This document shows, piece after piece, positions 13,747 through 60,654 of a stretch of DNA of 64,000 nucleotides. The position numbers and the translations under genes were made by a program. Every line of letters begins with the position of its first letter. The stretch's first letter is position 1. The stretch is from Xanthostigma xanthostigma. Taxonomy: Eukaryota; Arthropoda; Insecta; Raphidioptera; Raphidiidae. Where the stretch lies: assembly GCA_963575645.1 (NCBI GenBank), contig OY754464.1, positions 75,056,948 to 75,120,947 on the forward strand. Reading direction: 5' to 3'. Below the pieces are notes generated by a model, which was not told the DNA's origin, did not search any database, and saw only the letters and a list, made by a program, of their open reading frames with translations.

Positions 13747-13985
13747 TTGTATACACGACCCTGTAATTGTTTTTTAAAGAACTCTCCCCAAACGCCCTCC
13801 CCTTCTCACTGCGTTAAAAAACGCCATTGCATCGACACGACCCCGTAATTGTTTTTTAAAGAAGTCCCTCCAAACGCCCTCCCCTTTTTACTGCGCAAAA
13901 AACGCCATCGCATCGACAGGACCCCGTAATTGTTTTTTAAAGAATTCCCCCCAAACGCCTTCCCTTTTTCACTGCGCAAAAAAAA
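13747..13985 (-). repeat. Minisatellite, about 3 units of 81 bp
   Basis: Units run ATCGACACGACCCCGTAATT, GTTTTTTAAAGAA, a C-rich CCAAACGCCCTCCCC, then TGCGCAAAAAACGCCATCGC. Marker ATCGAC occurs at 13831 and 13912 (81 bp apart). It is the same family as the array at 48155-48665, in the opposite orientation. Confidence 0.85.
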
Positions 13986-16424: not shown

Positions 16425-16545
16425 CAAATAAATAAAATTGTCGACCAATTTTTTTTTCAGACTATATGATGACACAAAAAATGAAATTATAAATCAATAT
16501 TATAAAAGATAACGTTCCGATCCGGATTTGGATCTTCTTTAGAAA
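16425..16545 (-). mobile_element. Penelope-type terminal segment with decayed hammerhead-like motif
   Basis: The plus strand reads AAATAAAATTGTCGACCAAT, TTTCAGACTATA, then AACGTTCCGATCCGGATTTG and GATCTTCTTTAGA. The same end recurs near 36232, 41083, 51517 and 59448. On the minus strand it lies downstream of the endonuclease relic at 16730-17233. The core reads CTAAAGAA, stem GATCC/GGATC, then GGAACG, so two core bases differ from the intact copies. Confidence 0.6.
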
Positions 16546-16729
16546 TAATCTAAAAAATATAAAAATTGATTAATATATATCTACTTATTTTATACCTAAT
16601 AGAATGAAGTTAATTAATTATCGAAAATTAATGAAAAATTAATAACAAACAATTTTCTTTAATAAGTAGTCATGGATATCTGAGTACCTAAAAAGAAAGA
16701 AAAAATTCATTAAAAAACAAAATATTATT

Positions 16730-17233
16730 TCAAAATGATATCATAAATATTATACTTAAATTTTCCGTATCTAATTGAGCACTAAGAGAAGTTTTATTAG
16801 ATTTTATATATAACATTTCCGAAATACCTCTTTTAAAGTAATTTGTTTCATTATCTAAAATTTTAATACTATCCCAATTAATTTTATGGTCGTATTAGAA
16901 TTTATCTTTAGTTATGACATTATGCTTATCAGGGAGTAATTTATGATTGCTTTAGTGTTCTTTTATTCGTGTTTTAAGCGCTCTTTTTGTTTGCCGAATA
17001 TAATTCATATCACAATTTTCACAACAAATTTTGTAAACAACATTATGTTTTTGTAATTTATTTAGTTTATCCTTTTCCTTTTTAATAATTTTGTCTAGTT
17101 TATTATTAACGTTATAAACTGTTTTTATATTTAAATTTTTAAGAAATGAATTATATTTTTGAAAAAAGGAATCACCCACAGTCAGAATGGCTTCCAATTG
17201 GTACCATTCCGCACAATCCTCAAGTATAGGCAT
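16730..17233 (-). pseudogene. Penelope-like retroelement, GIY-YIG endonuclease region
   Basis: The first 93 codons from the start at 17233 contain VVYKI (residues 65-69), a CxxC pair (C71, C74) and YIRQT (78-82). They are followed by the basic stretch KRALKTRIKEH, the layout of a Penelope-like element (PLE) GIY-YIG endonuclease. After an in-frame stop the homology continues downstream (WDSIKILDNE, then NYFKRGISEMLYIKSNK), with a second stop after DKF, so it is a pseudogene. The glycine normally in YIG is replaced by arginine. The reverse transcriptase part is missing; PLE ends lie downstream. Confidence 0.8.
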
Positions 17234-17874
17234 CCGTTAAAGGTTTTAAAATAATTTATTTAAAAAGAAAAATAAAAAGCTTTTAAACTATCGCTATGGT
17301 TTTTATACGAGGGACAGAGAACTGTACTTAAGTTTTCTCTGAATATTATATTATTTTTAGTAAAATGCAAAATCGCTTGTTCGCTCCGTTTACAAAACAA
17401 ACGGTGCAGAGCTCGCTGTATGCTGAATATATGATGTAATGAAATTTCAAGTGAAGTTATACAGTTTCGGGCCGCATTCTTCAGTCATTCGCATGCAGAT
17501 CTCGTAATTTAAATTTAATAATACAATACGTTATGGGATAGTCGGCTTATCTGGCATGCTCTTGTTATTTCAGTATCACAGAATATTATTTAATACTCAG
17601 TCGGTCACGAATATATTTACGTTCATATCCGGTTTGAAACTAACGCGGACATAACAAAACGTGATAGACCAAGAACCAAACCGGGCAGGCTAACAGACAA
17701 TGAATGTCCAATAACAAGCCTGCTCTCAATATTACAAAAATTATTATACATTTTCAGCACAGTTATATAAAAAAAGAAAAAAAAAACAATAAAACAAGAA
17801 ACATAATTGAATAATGTAAAACTTAAATAACCGAAGATATATAATATTCACTATTTATTAATATTTCAAAAAAT
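17234..17874. other. Unassigned AT-rich DNA
   Basis: No reverse transcriptase motifs could be read upstream of the PLE endonuclease relic on either strand; otherwise unremarkable. Confidence 0.45.
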
Positions 17875-18450
17875 TGGTTGTCTGTAAAGTCGGTTTACGG
17901 ACGATAGTTTTACGTGATAACGTATTCCGTAATACATAACCTAAACCTCCCAAAATTTGGTTTCAATCCGCTTATCCTTGGTGTCGGAATGATAAGAAAT
18001 GTCAAAAGTGACGTTTGCAACTGTCAAAGTATTATGTTCTAATAATAATTAGTTATTCCAATACTTAACTTAGAAGGCGTTGCATTTCACAGAATACTAA
18101 TGTCAAAAAATTGAATTAAACATTAGAAATGCAGCCGTTTTCATGTTGCATTTATACAGCTATTTTTCTATATAAATTTGTATAAAAAAACTGTTTAGGC
18201 AAATTCTGTTATACGAAATCTATGTAAAATGTTCTCCTCTTTCGTTTAAGACTGGTTTCAAACCGATCTGATTTAAATTGAGCGAGAAATTAGCAAAAAG
18301 CACGCACAGGGTCAGGCGGAACGTTACGCGTTACGAACGTTAGGAACGTTACGATTTAGGAACGTTACACTTTTTCGTGCATGCAGCCGGTGTTTTATCA
18401 ATTTATAAGATTGGTGATTCATCAATTTATAAGACGTTATCACGTCAAAA
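17875..18450 (+). mobile_element. G-family element, mid-length form
   Basis: The complete family ends are present and the sequence is close to 51576-52276. It lacks the internal block ACGCGTT.. to ..CCATGCATTA present in the 738 and 51576 copies. Its right end abuts the LINE relic: the last codon (TGA) of that frame comes from the element's TTTTTTGACG end. Confidence 0.8.
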
Positions 18451-18970: not shown

Positions 18971-19013
18971 ACTTGACGTTTCGTCTACAACTGCGGTAGA
19001 CATTATCAAAGGC
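18971..19013 (-). ncRNA. Hammerhead-ribozyme-like motif, left arm of foldback
   Basis: This is the mirror of the 19084-19126 motif, lying in the inverted left arm. Core TTGATAAT, stem GTCTAC/GTAGAC, then GAAACGTC. The core departs from CUGANGA at two positions (C to T, G to A), so activity is doubtful. Confidence 0.35.
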
Positions 19014-19083: not shown

Positions 19084-19126
19084 GCCTTTGATAATGTCTA
19101 CCGCAGTTGTAGACGAAACGTCAGGT
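19084..19126 (+). ncRNA. Hammerhead-ribozyme-like motif, right arm of foldback
   Basis: GCCT, core TTGATAAT, stem GTCTAC (19096-19101), loop CGCAGTT, stem GTAGAC (19109-19114), GAAACGTC, then AGGT. GCCT/AGGT can pair as the outer stem, with one G-U. It keeps the architecture of the other copies with a longer, unrelated inner stem. Confidence 0.4.
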
Positions 19127-20700: not shown

Positions 20701-21258
20701 AAAAAACTTATATCTGCTTGCGTTATTGGTAGACCGAGAACATTCGACTGGAGTCAGTGTCGTCACGGCTGGGGGGTTGGGAGCATGTTACAATATTTTT
20801 TATTCACTAACGTACAGAGCACCAAACCTAAGTGCTTAAAGCGTCGAGTGTCAAGCGCTTTCATAAATGCTCGATTAGCACTTTTATTTTCAAACATGCT
20901 TGAAAGCAAATGCTTTAAAAACAAGAGTGCCATATCATATTTATGCGCGGTTGAAATAAAACTTCTTTTTTTGTTTGTCTTTTTTTAATATTCACTCACA
21001 AATTAAATCACCTCTAAAGTTATTTACGTTGACTGTGGTTTGCGTCCATAGCTATGTTTCCTGTAGATGCGTTTTGATGCCGCCATCTGTCAGTCGATAC
21101 CTTTAAATAGCAGAAACTGCGTAAATGCGTTACTTCCGTCCGAAAAAAGATTCTCAAAGAAGTTTTACTTCAAAAATATTTGTGATATAAATAGAAATTG
21201 AAGGAGATTTATTTGGTTAAGGAACAATTGAAATAAACTTTACCAAAGAATCGCTTGT
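20701..21258. other. Unassigned DNA with AAGCGCTTT-type short repeats
   Basis: Between 20820 and 20935, short inverted words (AAGTGCTTAAAGCG, AAGCGCTTTCATAAATGCTC, TGCTTGAAAGCAAATGCTTT) recur, perhaps ends of a decayed element. A plus-strand frame at 20608-20988 gives 126 residues with no known motif and ends in a low-complexity hydrophobic tail; not supported as a gene. GAAGTTTTACTTC lies at 21159-21171. Confidence 0.4.
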
Positions 21259-21297
21259 GGCCAACGTTTCGAAAATTATATTTTCATCCTCAGGGCC
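21259..21297 (-). ncRNA. Hammerhead-ribozyme-like motif
   Basis: On the minus strand: GGCC, CTGAGGAT, stem GAAAA, loop TATAA, stem TTTTC, GAAACGTT, GGCC. The core CUGANGA is exact, the inner stem is a perfect 5 bp, and the flanking GGCC/GGCC can pair as outer stem I. ACGU is self-complementary and would give stem III only between two molecules or copies. It lies on the 3' side of the PLE endonuclease relic at 22370-22960 (same strand), with two later insertions between. Confidence 0.6.
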
Positions 21298-21398
21298 TAT
21301 GAACATGACGTATAGTATTCAATTACATTAATATTATTATGATTTCTAAATTACACATAAATGCATTACAATATGTCAGATAAACCACACATTATAAC

Positions 21399-22369: not shown

Positions 22370-22960
22370 GTATACGGATTACATTTTGTTTACAGGTTAC
22401 AAATTGTTTGATTTTGTCAATTATATTGCCATAAATGCTGTTTAACCCTTCTATGTCCGTTCTCTTATTGATAGTTTTTGAATTTTTTTTTTGATGTAAC
22501 ACATTTCTAAGAAAAGTCTTTTTTGCAAATTTGTTTCTTTATGTAATATTTTTGGTTCATTAAAGTTAAAATTGTGATCATTAGAGATGGAGGGATGAAC
22601 CAATGCTGAATGATTATTTATTTATGTCACATGGTTTTCCTGAAGACTTTTATTTTATTTTTATTTATTTATTTATTTTACTTACTTTTACATTATTTTT
22701 AAAAATGTAATTATAATATGTAAGTTTTCCTACCCAACTTGGCAGAGCCAGTTCCAGGGTAGGAAACAAAACATTTTACAATATATAGGGTATTTGTAAC
22801 GTATATTTTCAAAATACGAGTTGAAAAAAAATTGAAAGAAAATAAATAAAATGAATTAATAATAACTTACGAAGTTTTAGTACATAATTTTTGTGCTGAT
22901 AAACATGATTTTTTAAATATTGTGAGGTTTGCTCAACATAAATGGCATTGCATTATAAAT
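22370..22960 (-). pseudogene. Second Penelope-like element, GIY-YIG endonuclease relic
   Basis: On the minus strand, 22955-22840 reads CNAIYVEQTSQYLKN followed by HVYQHKNYV. After about 200 bp of unrelated low-complexity sequence, 22620-22380 reads HNFNFNEPKILHKE, NLQKRLFLEM and, after a one-base slip in an A-run, INKRTDIEGLNSIYG. This is the order of a PLE endonuclease domain and its C-terminus. Stops, the insertion and the slip make it a pseudogene. The YIG glycine is glutamate here. No reverse transcriptase remains visible upstream. Confidence 0.72.
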
Positions 22961-36231: not shown

Positions 36232-36484
36232 TTTTTGATTAACGTCTGAATAGAACTCTTCAAATAAATAAAATTGTCGACCAATTTTTTCCAGACTATA
36301 TATTGACAAAAAATAATATAAAAATATAAGTCAATATAATTCATTCAAACTATCATTCAATCGTATTAGAAAATAAGTAGCTAATACTAATTAATTTTTA
36401 TATTTTTTTAGATATTTTTGAAGAAGATCCAAAGCCGGATCGAAAGGTCATCTTTTGTTATATTGACTTATACTTTATATATTG
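36232..36484. mobile_element. Head-to-head Penelope-type ends
   Basis: The left part has TTGATTAACGTCTGAATAGA and AAAATTGTCGACCAATTTTT followed by CAGACTATATATTGACA. The right part has TTTGAAGAAGATCCAAAGCC and GGATCGAAAGGTC then TATTGACTTATACTTTATAT. The two halves are inverted relative to each other around about 36340. The hammerhead-like core (36418-36449) reads TTGAAGAA, stem GATCC/GGATC, GAAAGGTC: decayed. Confidence 0.55.
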
Positions 36485-41082: not shown

Positions 41083-41165
41083 TTTCAAATAAATAAAATT
41101 ATCAACCAATTTTTTCAAATAACGTTTCGGTCCGGATTTGGATCTTCTTCAGAAAAAAATTGAGA
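41083..41165 (-). mobile_element. Penelope-type end with hammerhead-like core
   Basis: AAATAAATAAAATTATCAAC CAATTTTTTCAA is followed by AACGTTTCGGTCCGGATTTG and GATCTTCTTCAG. Minus-strand core (41121-41152): CTGAAGAA, GATCC, AAATCC, GGACC, GAAACGTT; one A-C mismatch in the inner stem and no outer stem. It directly follows the foldback. Confidence 0.6.
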
Positions 41166-47805: not shown

Positions 47806-48154
47806 ACATATACTTTGTTTGGGGTCCGGATCTAGAGAGCTGTGCACCAGCTTCGACTTCTGCCGTTTCGTACTATTCACGTATACCAGACACAAGTGTT
47901 GCAATATGGAGTCAAGTTTAAAGTTTAAAGTGGCGTGAAAATCAACTACAATAACTAAGGACCAGTGGCGTTTCTATAAGTGCTGCAAAGCTGCAGAACA
48001 ACCAAAATCTTATGTACTTCATAATTTTGGAATTAATTGGTAATGCAAATGCGCGTCTTGATCCCCCGTCATAATATCCCCCGACAAAAAATCATCTTGA
48101 TTGAATATCTTACGGGCACAATATCTCCCGACTTAAAAACAATTGCGGGGCCGT
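47806..48154. other. Unassigned DNA
   Basis: Apart from CCCCGTCATAATATCCCCCG and a similar ATATCTCCCGAC near 48120, nothing is legible. Confidence 0.4.
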
Positions 48155-48665
48155 GTCGATGCGATGGCGTTTTTTTTCCGCCGTGAAAAAGGAAAGGCGT
48201 TTAGGGGAGCTCTTTAAAAAAATAATTACGGGGTCGTGTCGATGCGATAGCGTTTTTTTGCGTCGTGAAAAAGGGAAGGTGTTTGACGGAGTTCTGTAAA
48301 AAAACAATTACGTAGTCGAGTCGATGCGATGGCGTTTTTTTGCGTCGTGAAAAAGGGAAGGTGTTTGACGGAGTTCTGTAAAAAACAATTACGTAGTCGA
48401 GTCGATGCGATAGCGTTTTTTTTGCGTCGTAAAAAAGGAAAGGTGTTTGACGGAGTTCTGTAAAAAACAAATATGGAATCGTGTCGATGCGATAGCGTTT
48501 TTTTTGCTCTGTGAAAAGGGAAAGACATTTGGGTGGAGTTCTTTAAAAAACAATTACGGGATCGAGTCGATTTGAAGGCGTTTTTTTTGCGTCGTGAAAA
48601 GGGGAAAGCGTTTAGGGGGAGTTCTTTAAAAAACAATTAAGGGGTCGTGTCGATGCGATGCGTAC
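48155..48665 (+). repeat. Minisatellite, six full units of 81-83 bp plus a partial
   Basis: GTCGATGCGATGGCGTTTTT starts units at 48155, 48238, 48320, 48401, 48483, 48566 and 48649. Each unit runs on through GTGAAAAAGGGAAGGTGTTT and GGAGTTCTGTAAAAAACAAT TACG. Same family as 13747-13985, inverted. It creates overlapping minus-strand open frames (48110-48636) that are artefacts. Confidence 0.95.
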
Positions 48666-52276: not shown

Positions 52277-52291
52277 ATATAAAAATTAATA

Positions 52292-52331
52292 CATTAACGT
52301 TTCGGTCCGGGTTTGAATCTTCTTCAGAACT
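52292..52331 (-). ncRNA. Hammerhead-ribozyme-like motif
   Basis: Minus strand: AGTT, CTGAAGAA, GATTC, AAACCC, GGACC, GAAACGTT, AATG. The core is exact; the inner stem has substitutions (weak pairing) and the outer stem is partial. Confidence 0.4.
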
Positions 52332-52432
52332 GATCTAAAAATATTAAAATTAATTAATAATTAGTTTCGAACTTTCTTTTTCAAAAACCAATTAAAAACT
52401 AATTATTTATTAATTTTTTATATTTTTAGATC

Positions 52433-52472
52433 AGTTCTGAAAAAGATCCAAATCCGGACCGAAACGTTAATG
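52433..52472 (+). ncRNA. Hammerhead-ribozyme-like motif
   Basis: Plus strand: AGTT, CTGAAAAA, GATCC, AAATCC, GGACC, GAAACGTT, AATG. The conserved G of CUGANGA is A here, so it is probably inactive. Confidence 0.4.
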
Positions 52473-52541
52473 TATTAATTTTTATATTTTTTGTTAATAT
52501 ATTTTTCTGAAAAATTGGTATAATTGTATTTATTGAAGAAT

Positions 52542-53684: not shown

Positions 53685-53804
53685 CATGCATTTTGATGTT
53701 TAAATTACAACTTTTCGCATAAAGCCATTTTTGTGAAAAACCTGGTAACAAAATATGTCTAGAAACTATAATTATTCAATACGCACATACATTTGGAAAT
53801 TTAG

Positions 53805-53979
53805 ATGAAAATGAGAAAGAAATCCTTTCCAAAAATGTTTATTTTCAATTAATTAATTAAGCGCTTTCGGACAATGATTAGTCCATCTTTTCTGAAGATG
53901 GACTAATAATTGTCCGAAAGCGCTTAATTAATTAATTGAAAATAAACATTTTTGGAAAGGATTTCTTTCTCATTTTCAT
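53805..53979. repeat. Foldback with 85-bp arms and 5-nt spacer
   Basis: Arms 53805-53889 and 53895-53979 around TTCTG are nearly perfect inverses. The centre reads CTGAAGATGGAC then TAATAATT, GTCCGAAAGCGC: CUGANGA plus a 4-bp stem and GAAA, but then GCGC in place of CGTY. Confidence 0.93.
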
Positions 53980-54431
53980 GTCTAGAAACCATAATTTTAA
54001 TAATCCTCCAGGGAGTTGATTTAAGTAAAAAAATTTCAGATCTCAATTACACAATTTTTACATGAAATGTTTTTGATGAAATCAGATTTTTCGAGGCAGG
54101 TTATAATTTTAAATGTACATATTGTGTACATGATGTGATACTTGGTGTATGAATAAAGAGTGTTCAGTGTTCACAGTCTACTTGTAACTGAAGAGCGAGA
54201 ACTAGCTTGTTTTGAAATGAGTTTCAAGCTCTAATATACAGAACTATGCTAATTACATACGCTCTAATGTATTTCATCTACTATACCTATACTTATGTAC
54301 AGGGTTTTCAAAATATAATTTTTTGCACGTCCTCGTAGAAAACAGCCGATTTTCATGCTTATTAGTTAGAGAGCTGACGCACAAAAAAAAACATGTTGTC
54401 CCAACTCTCTGCCGCCTGGTACATAAGCTAT
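53980..54431. other. Unassigned AT-rich DNA
   Basis: No recognisable feature up to the CTAT duplication of the next LTR. Confidence 0.5.
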
Positions 54432-57354: not shown

Positions 57355-58220
57355 TATAAAAATCTCGTGTCACAATTTAGGAAACGCGAATCTCCGAAAC
57401 CACTGAACCAATTTTTGTGAATGTGTCTTGCTTGGCCCAACTTATAGACTGTAGGATAGATTTTATTAAATATTTTGTACTAAATTACGATTTTTTGTAA
57501 AAATAAACTGTTTTAGTACCAAGTAGCGACATATATTAGAATTCGCTCAAAGCTATTAGTTCAGAAGCAAATCTGATAGAATTTGCTCGAAGTTATATTA
57601 GTTCAAATGCCGGGCCGCAAACGAAATACATTTTGCAGAATTATATCTATCGCACCCGGGTGAAACCGGGACGGACCGCTAGTATAGGTATAAAAATCTC
57701 ATGTCACAATTTTGGCCGCGCTAATCTCCGAAACCACTGAACAGATTTTAATGAAATTTTATAAATGTCTTGCTTGGTTCAATTTAGACTATAGGATAGT
57801 TTTTATAATATTTTGTACAAAAATAATAGTGTTTTATGAAAAAAAAACTGGTTTAGTAACATGAAGCGACATCTGATAGAATTTACTCACAGCTATAGTT
57901 CAGAGGCGAACAAAAAGATCTGTTTTAGTACCAAGTAGCGGCATCTGTTAGAATTGGCTTAAAGCTATTAGTTCAGAAGCAAATCTGGTAAAATTTTCTC
58001 AAAACTATTTTGGTATAATGTCTTCTTTAGAACCTTAAAGATCACTAAAGATTTTTAAGGTCCTGAAGAAGGCAAGAAATGTTGCCGAAACGTCGACCAA
58101 TAAAATAATGTTCTAGTGAATAAGAATTGTTTTAATATTTTAGCCTTGTATCCTGTATAATTTTATCATGGAATACATTTTGCAGAATTATATCTATCGC
58201 ACCCGGGTGAAACCGGGACT
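57355..58220 (-). mobile_element. Tandem pair of A-family-related repeats with a nested hammerhead-bearing insert
   Basis: The first unit (57355-57686) and second (57692-58220) both run AATCTCCGAAACCACTGAAC to ATTATATCTATCGCACCCGG GTGAAACCGGGAC, ending in the inverted A-family head GGACCGCTAGT or ACTAGCGGCC. The second unit is broken at about 58012-58168 by a different segment that carries the motif at 58059. Confidence 0.72.
58059..58098 (+). ncRNA. Hammerhead-ribozyme-like motif, best-formed copy
   Basis: GGTC, CTGAAGAA, stem GGCAA, loop GAAATG, stem TTGCC, GAAACGTC, GACC. CUGANGA and GAAA are exact; the inner stem is a perfect 5 bp closed by G-C next to the core. GGTC/GACC gives a perfect 4-bp outer stem, and GUC is a standard cleavage triplet. 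The extra A after CUGANGA and the absence of a looped stem III are departures from the textbook fold. It is followed by GACCAATAAAATAATG, like Penelope-type ends. Confidence 0.65.
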
Positions 58221-59290: not shown

Positions 59291-59447
59291 AAATTACCGA
59301 CTGCGCCAGTGTAGTATTTTATGTGCGTATTCGTTCACTGTACTTTTCAATATAAATTTTATTCCGGTATAAAAATACAAAATTAAACAGATTCTTAGTG
59401 TTACATAATATTAAGTTAAATAATAAATAATTTTAACAGAAATACTA

Positions 59448-59742
59448 CAATCGACCAATTTTTCAGACAATATATTAACAAAAATTATAATTAATACATT
59501 AACGTTTCGATCCGGATTTGGATCTTCTTCAGAACGGATCTAAAAAATATAAAAAATAATTAATATTTAATTTCTAATTCGCTTTATATAAATTCTTTCA
59601 AAATAATTAATTGGTATCAAAATATTGAAAAAATTAGAGATTTTTTATATTTTTTAGATCCGGATGGAAACGTTAATGTATTAATTATATTTTTTGTTAA
59701 TATATTGTCTGAAAAATTGGTCGATAATTTTATTTATTGAAT
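59448..59742. mobile_element. Head-to-head Penelope-type ends
   Basis: CAATCGACCAATTTTTCAGA CAATATATTAAC at the left is inverted at the right as GTTAATATATTGTCTGAAAA ATTGGTCGAT. The left half has a complete hammerhead-like core (59497-59536, minus); in the right half the core is deleted to TTAGATCCGGATGGAAACGT. Confidence 0.68.
59497..59536 (-). ncRNA. Hammerhead-ribozyme-like motif
   Basis: Minus strand: CGTT, CTGAAGAA, stem GATCC, loop AAATCC, stem GGATC, GAAACGTT, AATG. The core is exact, the inner stem is a perfect 5 bp, and CGTT/AATG can pair as the outer stem with one G-U. GUU is an acceptable NUH cleavage triplet. Confidence 0.55.
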
Positions 59743-59986
59743 AATTAATTTGTTTACATTGACAGCGGAACATTAAATTATGGCGACAATGGTCTTTATT
59801 TTACTTAAATCGTCAGCAGCGCAACAGCCCATGTTTTCTTTGTAATTAAAAAACTTCATTAAATTATAACTATTTTCTTTTTTAATAAACATTGCTCACT
59901 AACATACGGAAAAATGCATTCAAAAAATTTGTAACTCCGCCTCCTTCACATAGCCCATAGCAGTAAATCGCTTCGTTGCTCTTTTT

Positions 59987-60654
59987 TGACGTGATAACGT
60001 CTTATAAATTGATGAATCACCAATCTTATAAATTGATAAAACACCGGCTGCATGTTCGAAAAAGTGTAACGTAACGTTCCTAACGTTCCTAACGTTCCGC
60101 CTGACCCTGTGCGTGCTTTTTGCTAATTTTTCGCTCAATTTAAATCAGATCGGTTTGAAACCAGTCTTAAACGAAAGAGGAGAACATTTTACATAGATTT
60201 CGTATAACAGAATTTGCCTAAACAGTTTTTTTATACAAATTTATATAGAAAAATATTTTATACAAATTTATATAGAAAAATAGCTGTATAAATGCAATGT
60301 TGTGTAATGCATGGCGCGACGCGGTCGGTTGTCTTTGTTTGCCGTACATGGAAATTAGAAGCAAACGTATGTCTTGTCTTAACATGAAAACAGCTGCATT
60401 TCTAATGTTTAATTCAATTTTTTGACATTAGTATATTGTGAAATGCAAAGCCTTCTAAGTTAAGTATTGGAATAACTAATTATTATTAGAACATAATACT
60501 TTGTAAGTTGCAAACGTCACTTTTGACATTTCTTATCATTCCGACACCAAGGATAAGCGGATTGAAACCAAATTTTGGGAGGTTTAGGTTATGTATTACG
60601 GAATACGTTATCACGTAAAACTATCGTCCGTAAACCGACTTTACAGACAACCAA
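59987..60654 (-). mobile_element. G-family element, long form
   Basis: Inverse copy with both ends (GACGTGATAACGTCTTATAA at the left, TTTACAGACAACCAA at the right). It lies in a T-run beside a truncated hAT element and may have inserted into it, since the same T-run follows GTCGCTC in the 63398 copy. Confidence 0.85.

Follow-up and report, generated by a model that had tools for sequence, protein, structure and literature searches.

Hammerhead-like motifs in the window

The window, by which we mean the whole stretch of 64,000 nucleotides that was analysed, holds copies of a hammerhead-like RNA motif that an earlier note had placed at five sites, and the motif is indeed present at all five. 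Three of the sites match a strict descriptor, in which CTGANGA is followed by one base, a stem II of at least 4 bp and then GAAACGTY, and each of the three also supplied one row of a 12-family covariance model. The first occupies 58057–58100 on the plus strand (58063 in the earlier note), with GGCAA/UUGCC as stem II, GGUC/GACC as stem I and ACGUC as the predicted stem III and cleavage site, and the model scores it at 50.5 bits. An inverted, truncated copy of the same arm was read by eye at 58019–58045 on the minus strand, within a self-palindrome (58019–58074, 79%), so the site would be a head-to-head pair truncated within the ribozyme. An exact 48-nt direct repeat also lies in this region (57625–57672 and 58172–58219, 547 bp apart); its second copy begins at about the end of the 58063 pseudo-LTR (pLTR) arm.

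The second strict site, of the GAUCC/GGAUC family, is found on the minus strand at 59495–59538 (59532–59501, given earlier as 59501). It is part of an inverted-pair element at 59425–59750 with arms at 59425–59517 and 59658–59750 (87%), and in the second of them (from 59658) neither CTGA nor the 5' side of stem II is present. The third, of the GAAAA/UUUUC family with stem I GGCC/GGCC, lies on the minus strand at 21257–21299 (21293–21263).

The remaining two sites belong to variant classes. At 19088–19122 on the plus strand, the right arm of a palindrome carries the core UUGAUAA, in which C3 has become U3 and G8 has become A8; the left arm holds a twin of this U3-A8 motif at 18975–19009 on the minus strand. 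Both were found by a looser descriptor, and the covariance model, which has no U3-A8 row, gives the right arm E=0.21. At 53892–53925 on the plus strand (model E=0.07), stem III is AGCGCU followed by U. This motif sits in a palindromic head-to-head insertion at 53755–53989, bounded by a 12-nt duplication, ATGTCTAGAAAC, at 53755–53766 and 53978–53989, with outer arms of 92 and 52 nt, or of 85 and 52 nt if the duplication is taken as 19 nt with one mismatch. The observed 12 compares with a mean of 6.4 and a maximum of 24 for 500 random window pairs, a maximum to be read in the light of random pairs that could fall in repeats or overlap.

Five further sites had been missed. At E≤0.005 the covariance model finds, in addition to the three sites that are its own rows, a head-to-head pair with its left arm at 52290–52333 (minus strand, E=1.2e-6) and its right arm at 52431–52474 (plus strand, E=3.5e-6, with G8 changed to A), a copy with one broken pair in stem II at 41115–41158 (minus strand, E=2.6e-6), and two decayed copies at 16505–16548 (minus strand, E=5.7e-4) and 36412–36455 (plus strand, E=0.0047; UUGAAGA ... 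GAAAGGUC). None of the five is a model row, and all belong to the GATCC family of one row. Weaker matches were obtained at 53886 (E=0.07), 19082 (E=0.21) and 17437 (E=0.48).

A shuffled-sequence check had been proposed in the earlier note, and we found that the strict motif, with its three sites (58063 on the plus strand, 59532 and 21293 on the minus strand), does not occur in 100 dinucleotide shuffles of the window. An exact-core descriptor ending in GAAA gave five matches (58063, 59532, 21293, 7240 and 53892), compared to an average of 0.17 and at most 2 after shuffling, and the looser descriptor gave ten, including 19088 and its twin, against a mean of 0.84 and maximum of 3.

Other repeats were observed in the window. 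Units like TTATAAATTGATGAATCACC make up a short repeat that is seen at 1650, at 18389, in the 52290 region and at 60000; in the 52290/52431 pair, the left arm is interrupted by one such copy. Tandem arrays of 81–82 bp units at 13753–13983 and 48135–48663 look related and lie on opposite strands.

Covariation of stems I and II

The central claim of the earlier note was that the stems differ between families and still pair. We examined this with 12 family representatives chosen for differing stems; all except one, L069, had been found via the core, so that core conservation in this set is partly by construction. Paired bases were found in 92.5% of stem cells, compared to 53.5% after shuffling, 45 cells carried two-sided changes (13.9 after shuffling), and covariation scored 1.056 (0.229 after shuffling); none of these values was reached in 500 shuffles. 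Sliding the partner by 1–3 columns reduced pairing to only 31.8–47.7%. Stem II is paired in 100% of cells and stem I in 83.3%, and the outer stems that had been singled out (GGUC/GACC, GGCC/GGCC and CGUU/AAUG) do pair, with stem I covarying over the 12 families. Eight of nine pairs had changed on both sides, which by itself is unexceptional, as 131 of 500 shuffles reach it.

The identification as a hammerhead thus holds for the core, which is CUGANGA ... GAAA at the right spacing or its compensated U3-A8 form, and for the compensating stems. It does not hold for the canonical form: stem III cannot be closed within one molecule, stem II is separated from CUGANGA by one extra unpaired base (among 100 matches listed, A 68, T 30, C 1 and G 1), and the Rfam hammerhead models gave no match at the gathering threshold or at E≤10, either in the whole window or in 58040–58110. 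The Rfam microRNA matches in the window that we inspected are palindromic repeats.

Abundance in the genome and the 3-8 core pair

The assembly around the window comprises 623 Mb in 28 contigs. A genome-wide search with a custom descriptor, again a proposal of the earlier note, was run with the pattern CTGANGANN{4,20}GAAACGTY, which does not require stem pairing; it gave 9,912 matches on the plus and 10,086 on the minus strand, in total 19,998, compared to 42 and 36, or 78, for the reversed pattern. Among the 100 C3-G8 matches listed (the first of contig C1), 75 have a stem II of at least 4 bp, in variants that include GATCC/GGATC, GAAAA/TTTTC, GATAC/GTATC, GTTTT/AAAAC, GGTCT/AGACC, GTTGT/ACAAC, GGCAA/TTGCC, GGTTT/AAGCC and GCTA/TAGC. 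These 100 matches contain 50 distinct middles, 26 of them paired; 48 were testable by length, and their 26 paired middles exceed what is obtained when they are re-dealt (mean 8.7, maximum 16).

With the rest of the pattern fixed, genome matches and reversed controls were 19,998 and 78 for C3-G8, 6,412 and 495 for U3-A8, 1,212 and 147 for U3-G8, and 1,267 and 185 for C3-A8, the last being inflated because an unrelated repeat is included. The double form U3-A8 is thus several times commoner genome-wide than either single change, and by our own arithmetic the 3-8 odds ratio is about 100 after subtraction of the controls, to be read with the fact that copies inherit the state of their family and are not independent events. 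Many listed U3-G8 copies resemble, by eye, decayed C3-G8 families. U3-A8 cores are found in several stem families among the matches listed, and at two GIY-YIG loci, L073 and L076; stem II is paired in 64 of 100 U3-A8 matches listed. Because stem II pairs in 75 (C3-G8) and 64 (U3-A8) of 100 listed, a pattern match is not always a ribozyme. Among the matches listed, read by eye with letters for 77 of 100 rows, one large class, GAGAGCATAGCTCTC-GAAATGTA, stands alone in being well paired while lacking C at 15.2.

Could the motif be a product of chance or base composition? Two of the five sites first reported stand at E=0.07 or above in the covariance model, as such an artefact would allow. The empty shuffles and the genome counts (19,998 against 78, 6,412 against 495, and 677 against 2 for the AGCGCU class described below) refute this reading, to which we assign practically no probability.

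As a separate observation, CTGAGAACATGTATAAGAAACGTC occurs in minus/plus pairs at a near-constant spacing of about 240 bp (e.g., C1 7302602–7302864 and 15828542–15828804). These look like the ends of hammerhead pairs with no evident stem II, and their fixed spacing suggests a repeat that was amplified as a unit.

A self-complementary stem III

All intact copies that we read have a palindromic stem III with no loop. Since its forms (ACGU, AUGU, ACAUGU, ACUAGU and AGCGCU) are self-complementary, closure would be possible only between two molecules. CTGANGA...GAAAGCGCTH, the class of the 53892 site, has 677 genome matches compared to 2 for the reversed pattern, ACAUGU has 93 compared to 15, and ACUAGU has 68 compared to 16; palindromic six-mers only were counted. 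At GIY-YIG loci we read ACGU in L071, L073, L077 and L078, ACAUGU then C in L080, and ACUAGU then U in L081 and L082. In L069 and L070 stem III is AUGU then A, a palindrome via G-U pairs, while L076 has a decayed ACGC in which the palindrome is broken. Pairing with a second copy is thus possible for all stem III forms read except that of L076. PLE hammerheads without helix III, possibly cleaving as dimers, are described in the accessible part of PMC7761336, and judging from the letters, cleavage of the motif, if any, would require two RNAs paired via their stem III.

Outward-facing motifs of the ACUAGU class were also observed 3–5 kb apart (C1:75241159–75244821, C8:30615284–30620182 and C13:16975912–16979315). 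This span fits a whole PLE frame, and the pair on C13 contains the GIY-YIG locus L082.

Linkage to Penelope-like elements

The earlier note had regarded the repeats that host the motif as unrelated. This was wrong: several are pLTRs of Penelope-like elements (PLEs), and the remainder share the same architecture. At L069 two motifs enclose 804 codons from stop to stop, in which RVT_1 (3.1e-11) and GIY-YIG (1.2e-5) both score over the Pfam cut-offs, and L070 has 657 codons from stop to stop, again with RVT_1 and GIY-YIG over the cut-offs. RT and GIY-YIG in one frame, as expected of a PLE, were thus found at L069 and L070; the mini-elements carry fragments or none. GIY-YIG frames upstream of the motif were found at L006/L049 and L007/L050, where Pfam E values of 6.6e-4 and 4.3e-4 narrowly miss the curated cut-off, and the inverted motifs of L022 enclose a GIY-YIG fragment. 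In the pLTR of L069, we noted that GTAAGAAGTAACTATTCTCTATTTTTTATTAG, which lies between the motif and the ATG, resembles a small spliceosomal intron; introns occur near PLE starts. Between two PLE motifs, locus L066 (3283–7278, minus strand) contains a 1,332-codon open frame that, by eye, is apparently the polyprotein of a Gypsy-type LTR retrotransposon.

A genome search for the GIY-YIG family gave at least 37 places (150 of 521 candidates were scored), of which 14 were fetched. Among 12 GIY-YIG loci fetched irrespective of the motif and scanned without a shuffle control, eight have a sense-strand paired motif (L071, L073, L076, L077, L078, L080, L081 and L082). No acceptable sense-strand motif was found in the other four (L072, L074, L075 and L079); L079 has one weak antisense match, and L074 may not be a PLE. 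By eye, L071 and the mini-element L017 match over a stretch that starts about 17 nt ahead of the motif and reaches about 66 nt beyond it.

Traces of PLE coding sequence are also found in the window. A decayed end of a PLE GIY-YIG endonuclease lies at 16733–17236 on the minus strand, upstream of the decayed motif at 16505–16548; tblastn with the L007 PLE fragment matched 17062–16739 (80.6%, 1.7e-54), and the two pieces of this remnant did not reach a GIY-YIG domain in Pfam on their own. A possible second endonuclease remnant, upstream of the 21293 motif at 22454–22952 on the minus strand, gave a weak tblastn match (3.6e-4 over 22612–22490) and no Pfam domain. RT and GIY-YIG frames thus identify the motif-bearing repeats as PLE pLTRs for several families, and for the rest we infer the same. 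The 19088 and 53892 families are linked to PLEs by their architecture, and the former also by two PLE loci that share its U3-A8 core class.

Head-to-head pairs with uneven arms

Many copies of the motif occur as inverted neighbours. Strict minus/plus pairs less than 1.5 kb apart hold 42 of the 100 places listed (the first of C1). Among the C3-G8 matches listed, neighbours within 1.5 kb are minus/plus in 21 of 25 cases (the others are three plus/plus and one plus/minus), and the same holds for U3-A8 in 12 of 14 (two are minus/minus) and, counted by eye, for AGCGCU in 6 of 6, ACAUGU in 8 of 8 and ACUAGU in 10 of 10. For the 43 motif places outside strict pairs, an inverted-repeat match was found nearby in 33 and none in 10, a gross count that takes in several matches of small size, located away from the motif or with the motif at their centre. 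Each paired locus forms a palindrome, the junction of which varies, as does the distance between its motifs (22 to 1110 nt), and as judged from sequence many copies are short insertions in which two outward-facing pLTR copies are fused head to head.

To delimit these insertions we looked for target-site duplications (TSDs) in 20 fetched pairs, one of which (L026) was omitted because its palindrome is much longer. Exact duplications of 11–17 bp flank 13 of the 19 paired loci (L009, L010, L012, L015, L016, L017, L018, L020, L021, L022, L025, L027 and L028), each exceeding the control matches of its locus (control maxima 7 to 12). Stricter rules accepted 28 of 63 rows, equal to 18 distinct loci, and added seven (L034, L042, L044, L045, L048, L060 and L064); L021 and L027, with A/T-only duplications, were not accepted under these rules. 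In 18 of the 20 TSD-bearing loci the arms end 61–78 nt past the motif on one side and 84–108 nt past it on the other. The two remaining loci are L028 (99/90), in which the shorter arm has an internal duplication, and L042 (92/106), in which the longer arm has an internal deletion; by homologous endpoint, judged by eye, both are again short/long. The 53892 element is the twenty-first TSD-bounded locus, with a short arm of 52 nt that is shorter than the others. One short and one long endpoint are thus found in all 21 insertions with a recognised TSD, a subset of the loci. PLEs are marked by TSDs, by tandem or inverted pLTRs and by a pLTR tail of about 30 nt that may be absent, and these features were found here.

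The arms of one element are not consistently closer to each other than to those of other elements; within-element likeness beats the best between-element likeness in 6 of 12 loci. Both motifs are complete in the 21 strict pairs, as the search pattern demands, so sequence on both sides of the predicted cleavage site has been copied and the copied RNA would not have been left cleaved there. In full-length folds of five mini-elements the right-arm motif is base-paired to the left arm (a single base is left unpaired in L027), and read-through transcripts should therefore hide the ribozyme, if the folds are right.

Inverted arms in bounded insertions would also be expected of MITEs that belong to a cut-and-paste DNA transposon and owe the hammerhead-like look of their terminal inverted repeats to descent from one ancestor. 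We rejected this candidate, since its terminal inverted repeats should be equal and its TSD constant in length: all 21 TSD-bounded loci have unequal ends, and the TSDs vary from 11 to 17 bp. The variable inter-motif distance, the stem covariation between families, and the same kinds of pLTR that border RT/GIY-YIG frames likewise argue against it, which leaves it extremely improbable.

A second candidate, scarcely more credible and in our view very unlikely, is that of metazoan retrozymes, i.e., short tandem type I hammerhead units moving as circular RNA. The elements are indeed short, hammerhead-bearing and flanked by TSDs, and the accessible part of PMC7229834 places retrozyme-like repeats in insects among other invertebrates. 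Of the neighbour pairs listed, however, 21 of 25 (C3-G8) and 12 of 14 (U3-A8) are inverted and not tandem; the copies also have a tail like that of PLEs, and a PLE pLTR is matched by one family of mini-elements. A direct-repeat retrozyme was rejected since the tandem arrangement of hammerhead units was not found.

Discussion

Minimal type I hammerheads of Penelope-like elements and Terminons have reportedly been described by Cervera and de la Pena in 2014 and by Lunse, Weinberg and Breaker in 2017. The motifs in the window resemble these in their core, short stems, missing helix III, PLE association and proposed action as dimers, and differ in that they often form inverted pairs too short for a PLE frame, in the thousands of U3-A8 copies, and in four self-complementary stem III sequences beyond ACGU. 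We consider it highly probable that the motifs are minimal type I hammerheads in PLE pLTRs, many of them in short head-to-head insertions. The core, the covarying stems I and II and the linkage of several families to RT/GIY-YIG frames are direct observations. The motif of the earlier note is thus confirmed at all five sites, and its interpretation is supported with the two corrections made above.

Among the closest systems is Penelope of Adineta vaga, for which the accessible part of PMC3846280 describes inverted pLTRs, an optional 31-bp tail on one of them, TSDs of 9–10 bp, palindromic head-to-head junctions and sequences captured between pLTRs. Inverted pLTRs, tail, TSDs, palindromic junctions and captured sequences are shared; the word hammerhead does not occur in that part of the paper, and copy number there is low compared to the thousands here. 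For the Poseidon PLE of Anolis carolinensis (PAc), the accessible part of PMC11167929 reports a pLTR hammerhead near the ORF start, a tandem arrangement, two RT start sites that define a tail of 30–40 bp, cutting and extension of both target strands, insertion of unprocessed RNA, and a ribozyme that cuts only with the protein present. The two RT start sites match the two arm endpoints found here; the arrangement differs, and neither head-to-head mini-insertions nor one start site per arm is described in that part of the paper.

The uneven ends of the back-to-back pairs hint at how PLEs insert, and we infer a reaction that is two-sided, in which each target strand has a start site of its own. 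The PLE protein would act upon pLTR RNA and its endonuclease would open AT-rich target DNA, after which each broken target strand would prime a cDNA. One cDNA would begin at the proximal RT start site and give the short arm, the other would begin about 30 nt further on and give the arm with a tail, and the two would join head to head at a variable junction.

The PLE origin might be right and the two-sided priming wrong, if the inverted dimers arose by self-priming (fold-back) on one template before insertion, as proposed for Adineta vaga. For palindromic junctions, the accessible part of PMC3846280 prefers self-priming on an antisense template, and we regard this route as a tangible possibility that falls short of being probable. 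One short and one long endpoint each time are not obviously expected from it, and the PLE protein of Anolis extends both target strands (PMC11167929, accessible part). In its accessible part, a 2020 review (PMC7761336) describes what PLE hammerheads do as "still a mystery". It is conceivable, if unlikely, that the main role of the hammerhead is to pair two template RNAs, like a retroviral dimer-linkage site, rather than to cut, and that a dimeric PLE enzyme then copies one RNA per broken strand, one from each start site. Stem III, the letters of which differ and are yet always palindromic in intact copies read, would hold the two pLTR RNAs together. If so, the product would be a head-to-head pair whose arms are of two lengths, one short and one long, coding-less pairs would be frequent abortive or parasitic outcomes, and read-through transcripts would mask the ribozyme in a long hairpin.

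Minimal dimeric PLE hammerheads, PLE tails, inverted pLTRs and U3-A8 cores are already in print. With regard to the last, the accessible part of PMC3088659 states that the compensatory change from C3-G8 to U3-A8 occurs in nature, with "several" examples and cited in vitro activity, compared to 6,412 pattern matches here, in several stem families, two of which were seen at GIY-YIG loci. The additions made here would be the abundance, the uneven arms and the variant families; to judge from the listings of papers, the open-licence literature yielded no description of hammerhead-bearing inverted mini-PLEs or of a constant short/long pair.

The approximately 20,000 strict and 6,412 core-compensated pattern matches, many of them cleanly bounded and with uneven arms, are a natural record of PLE integration. 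If there is one start site per strand, then the PLE "tail" would be a readable mark of a two-sided reaction, and the ribozyme dimer would gain a testable role.
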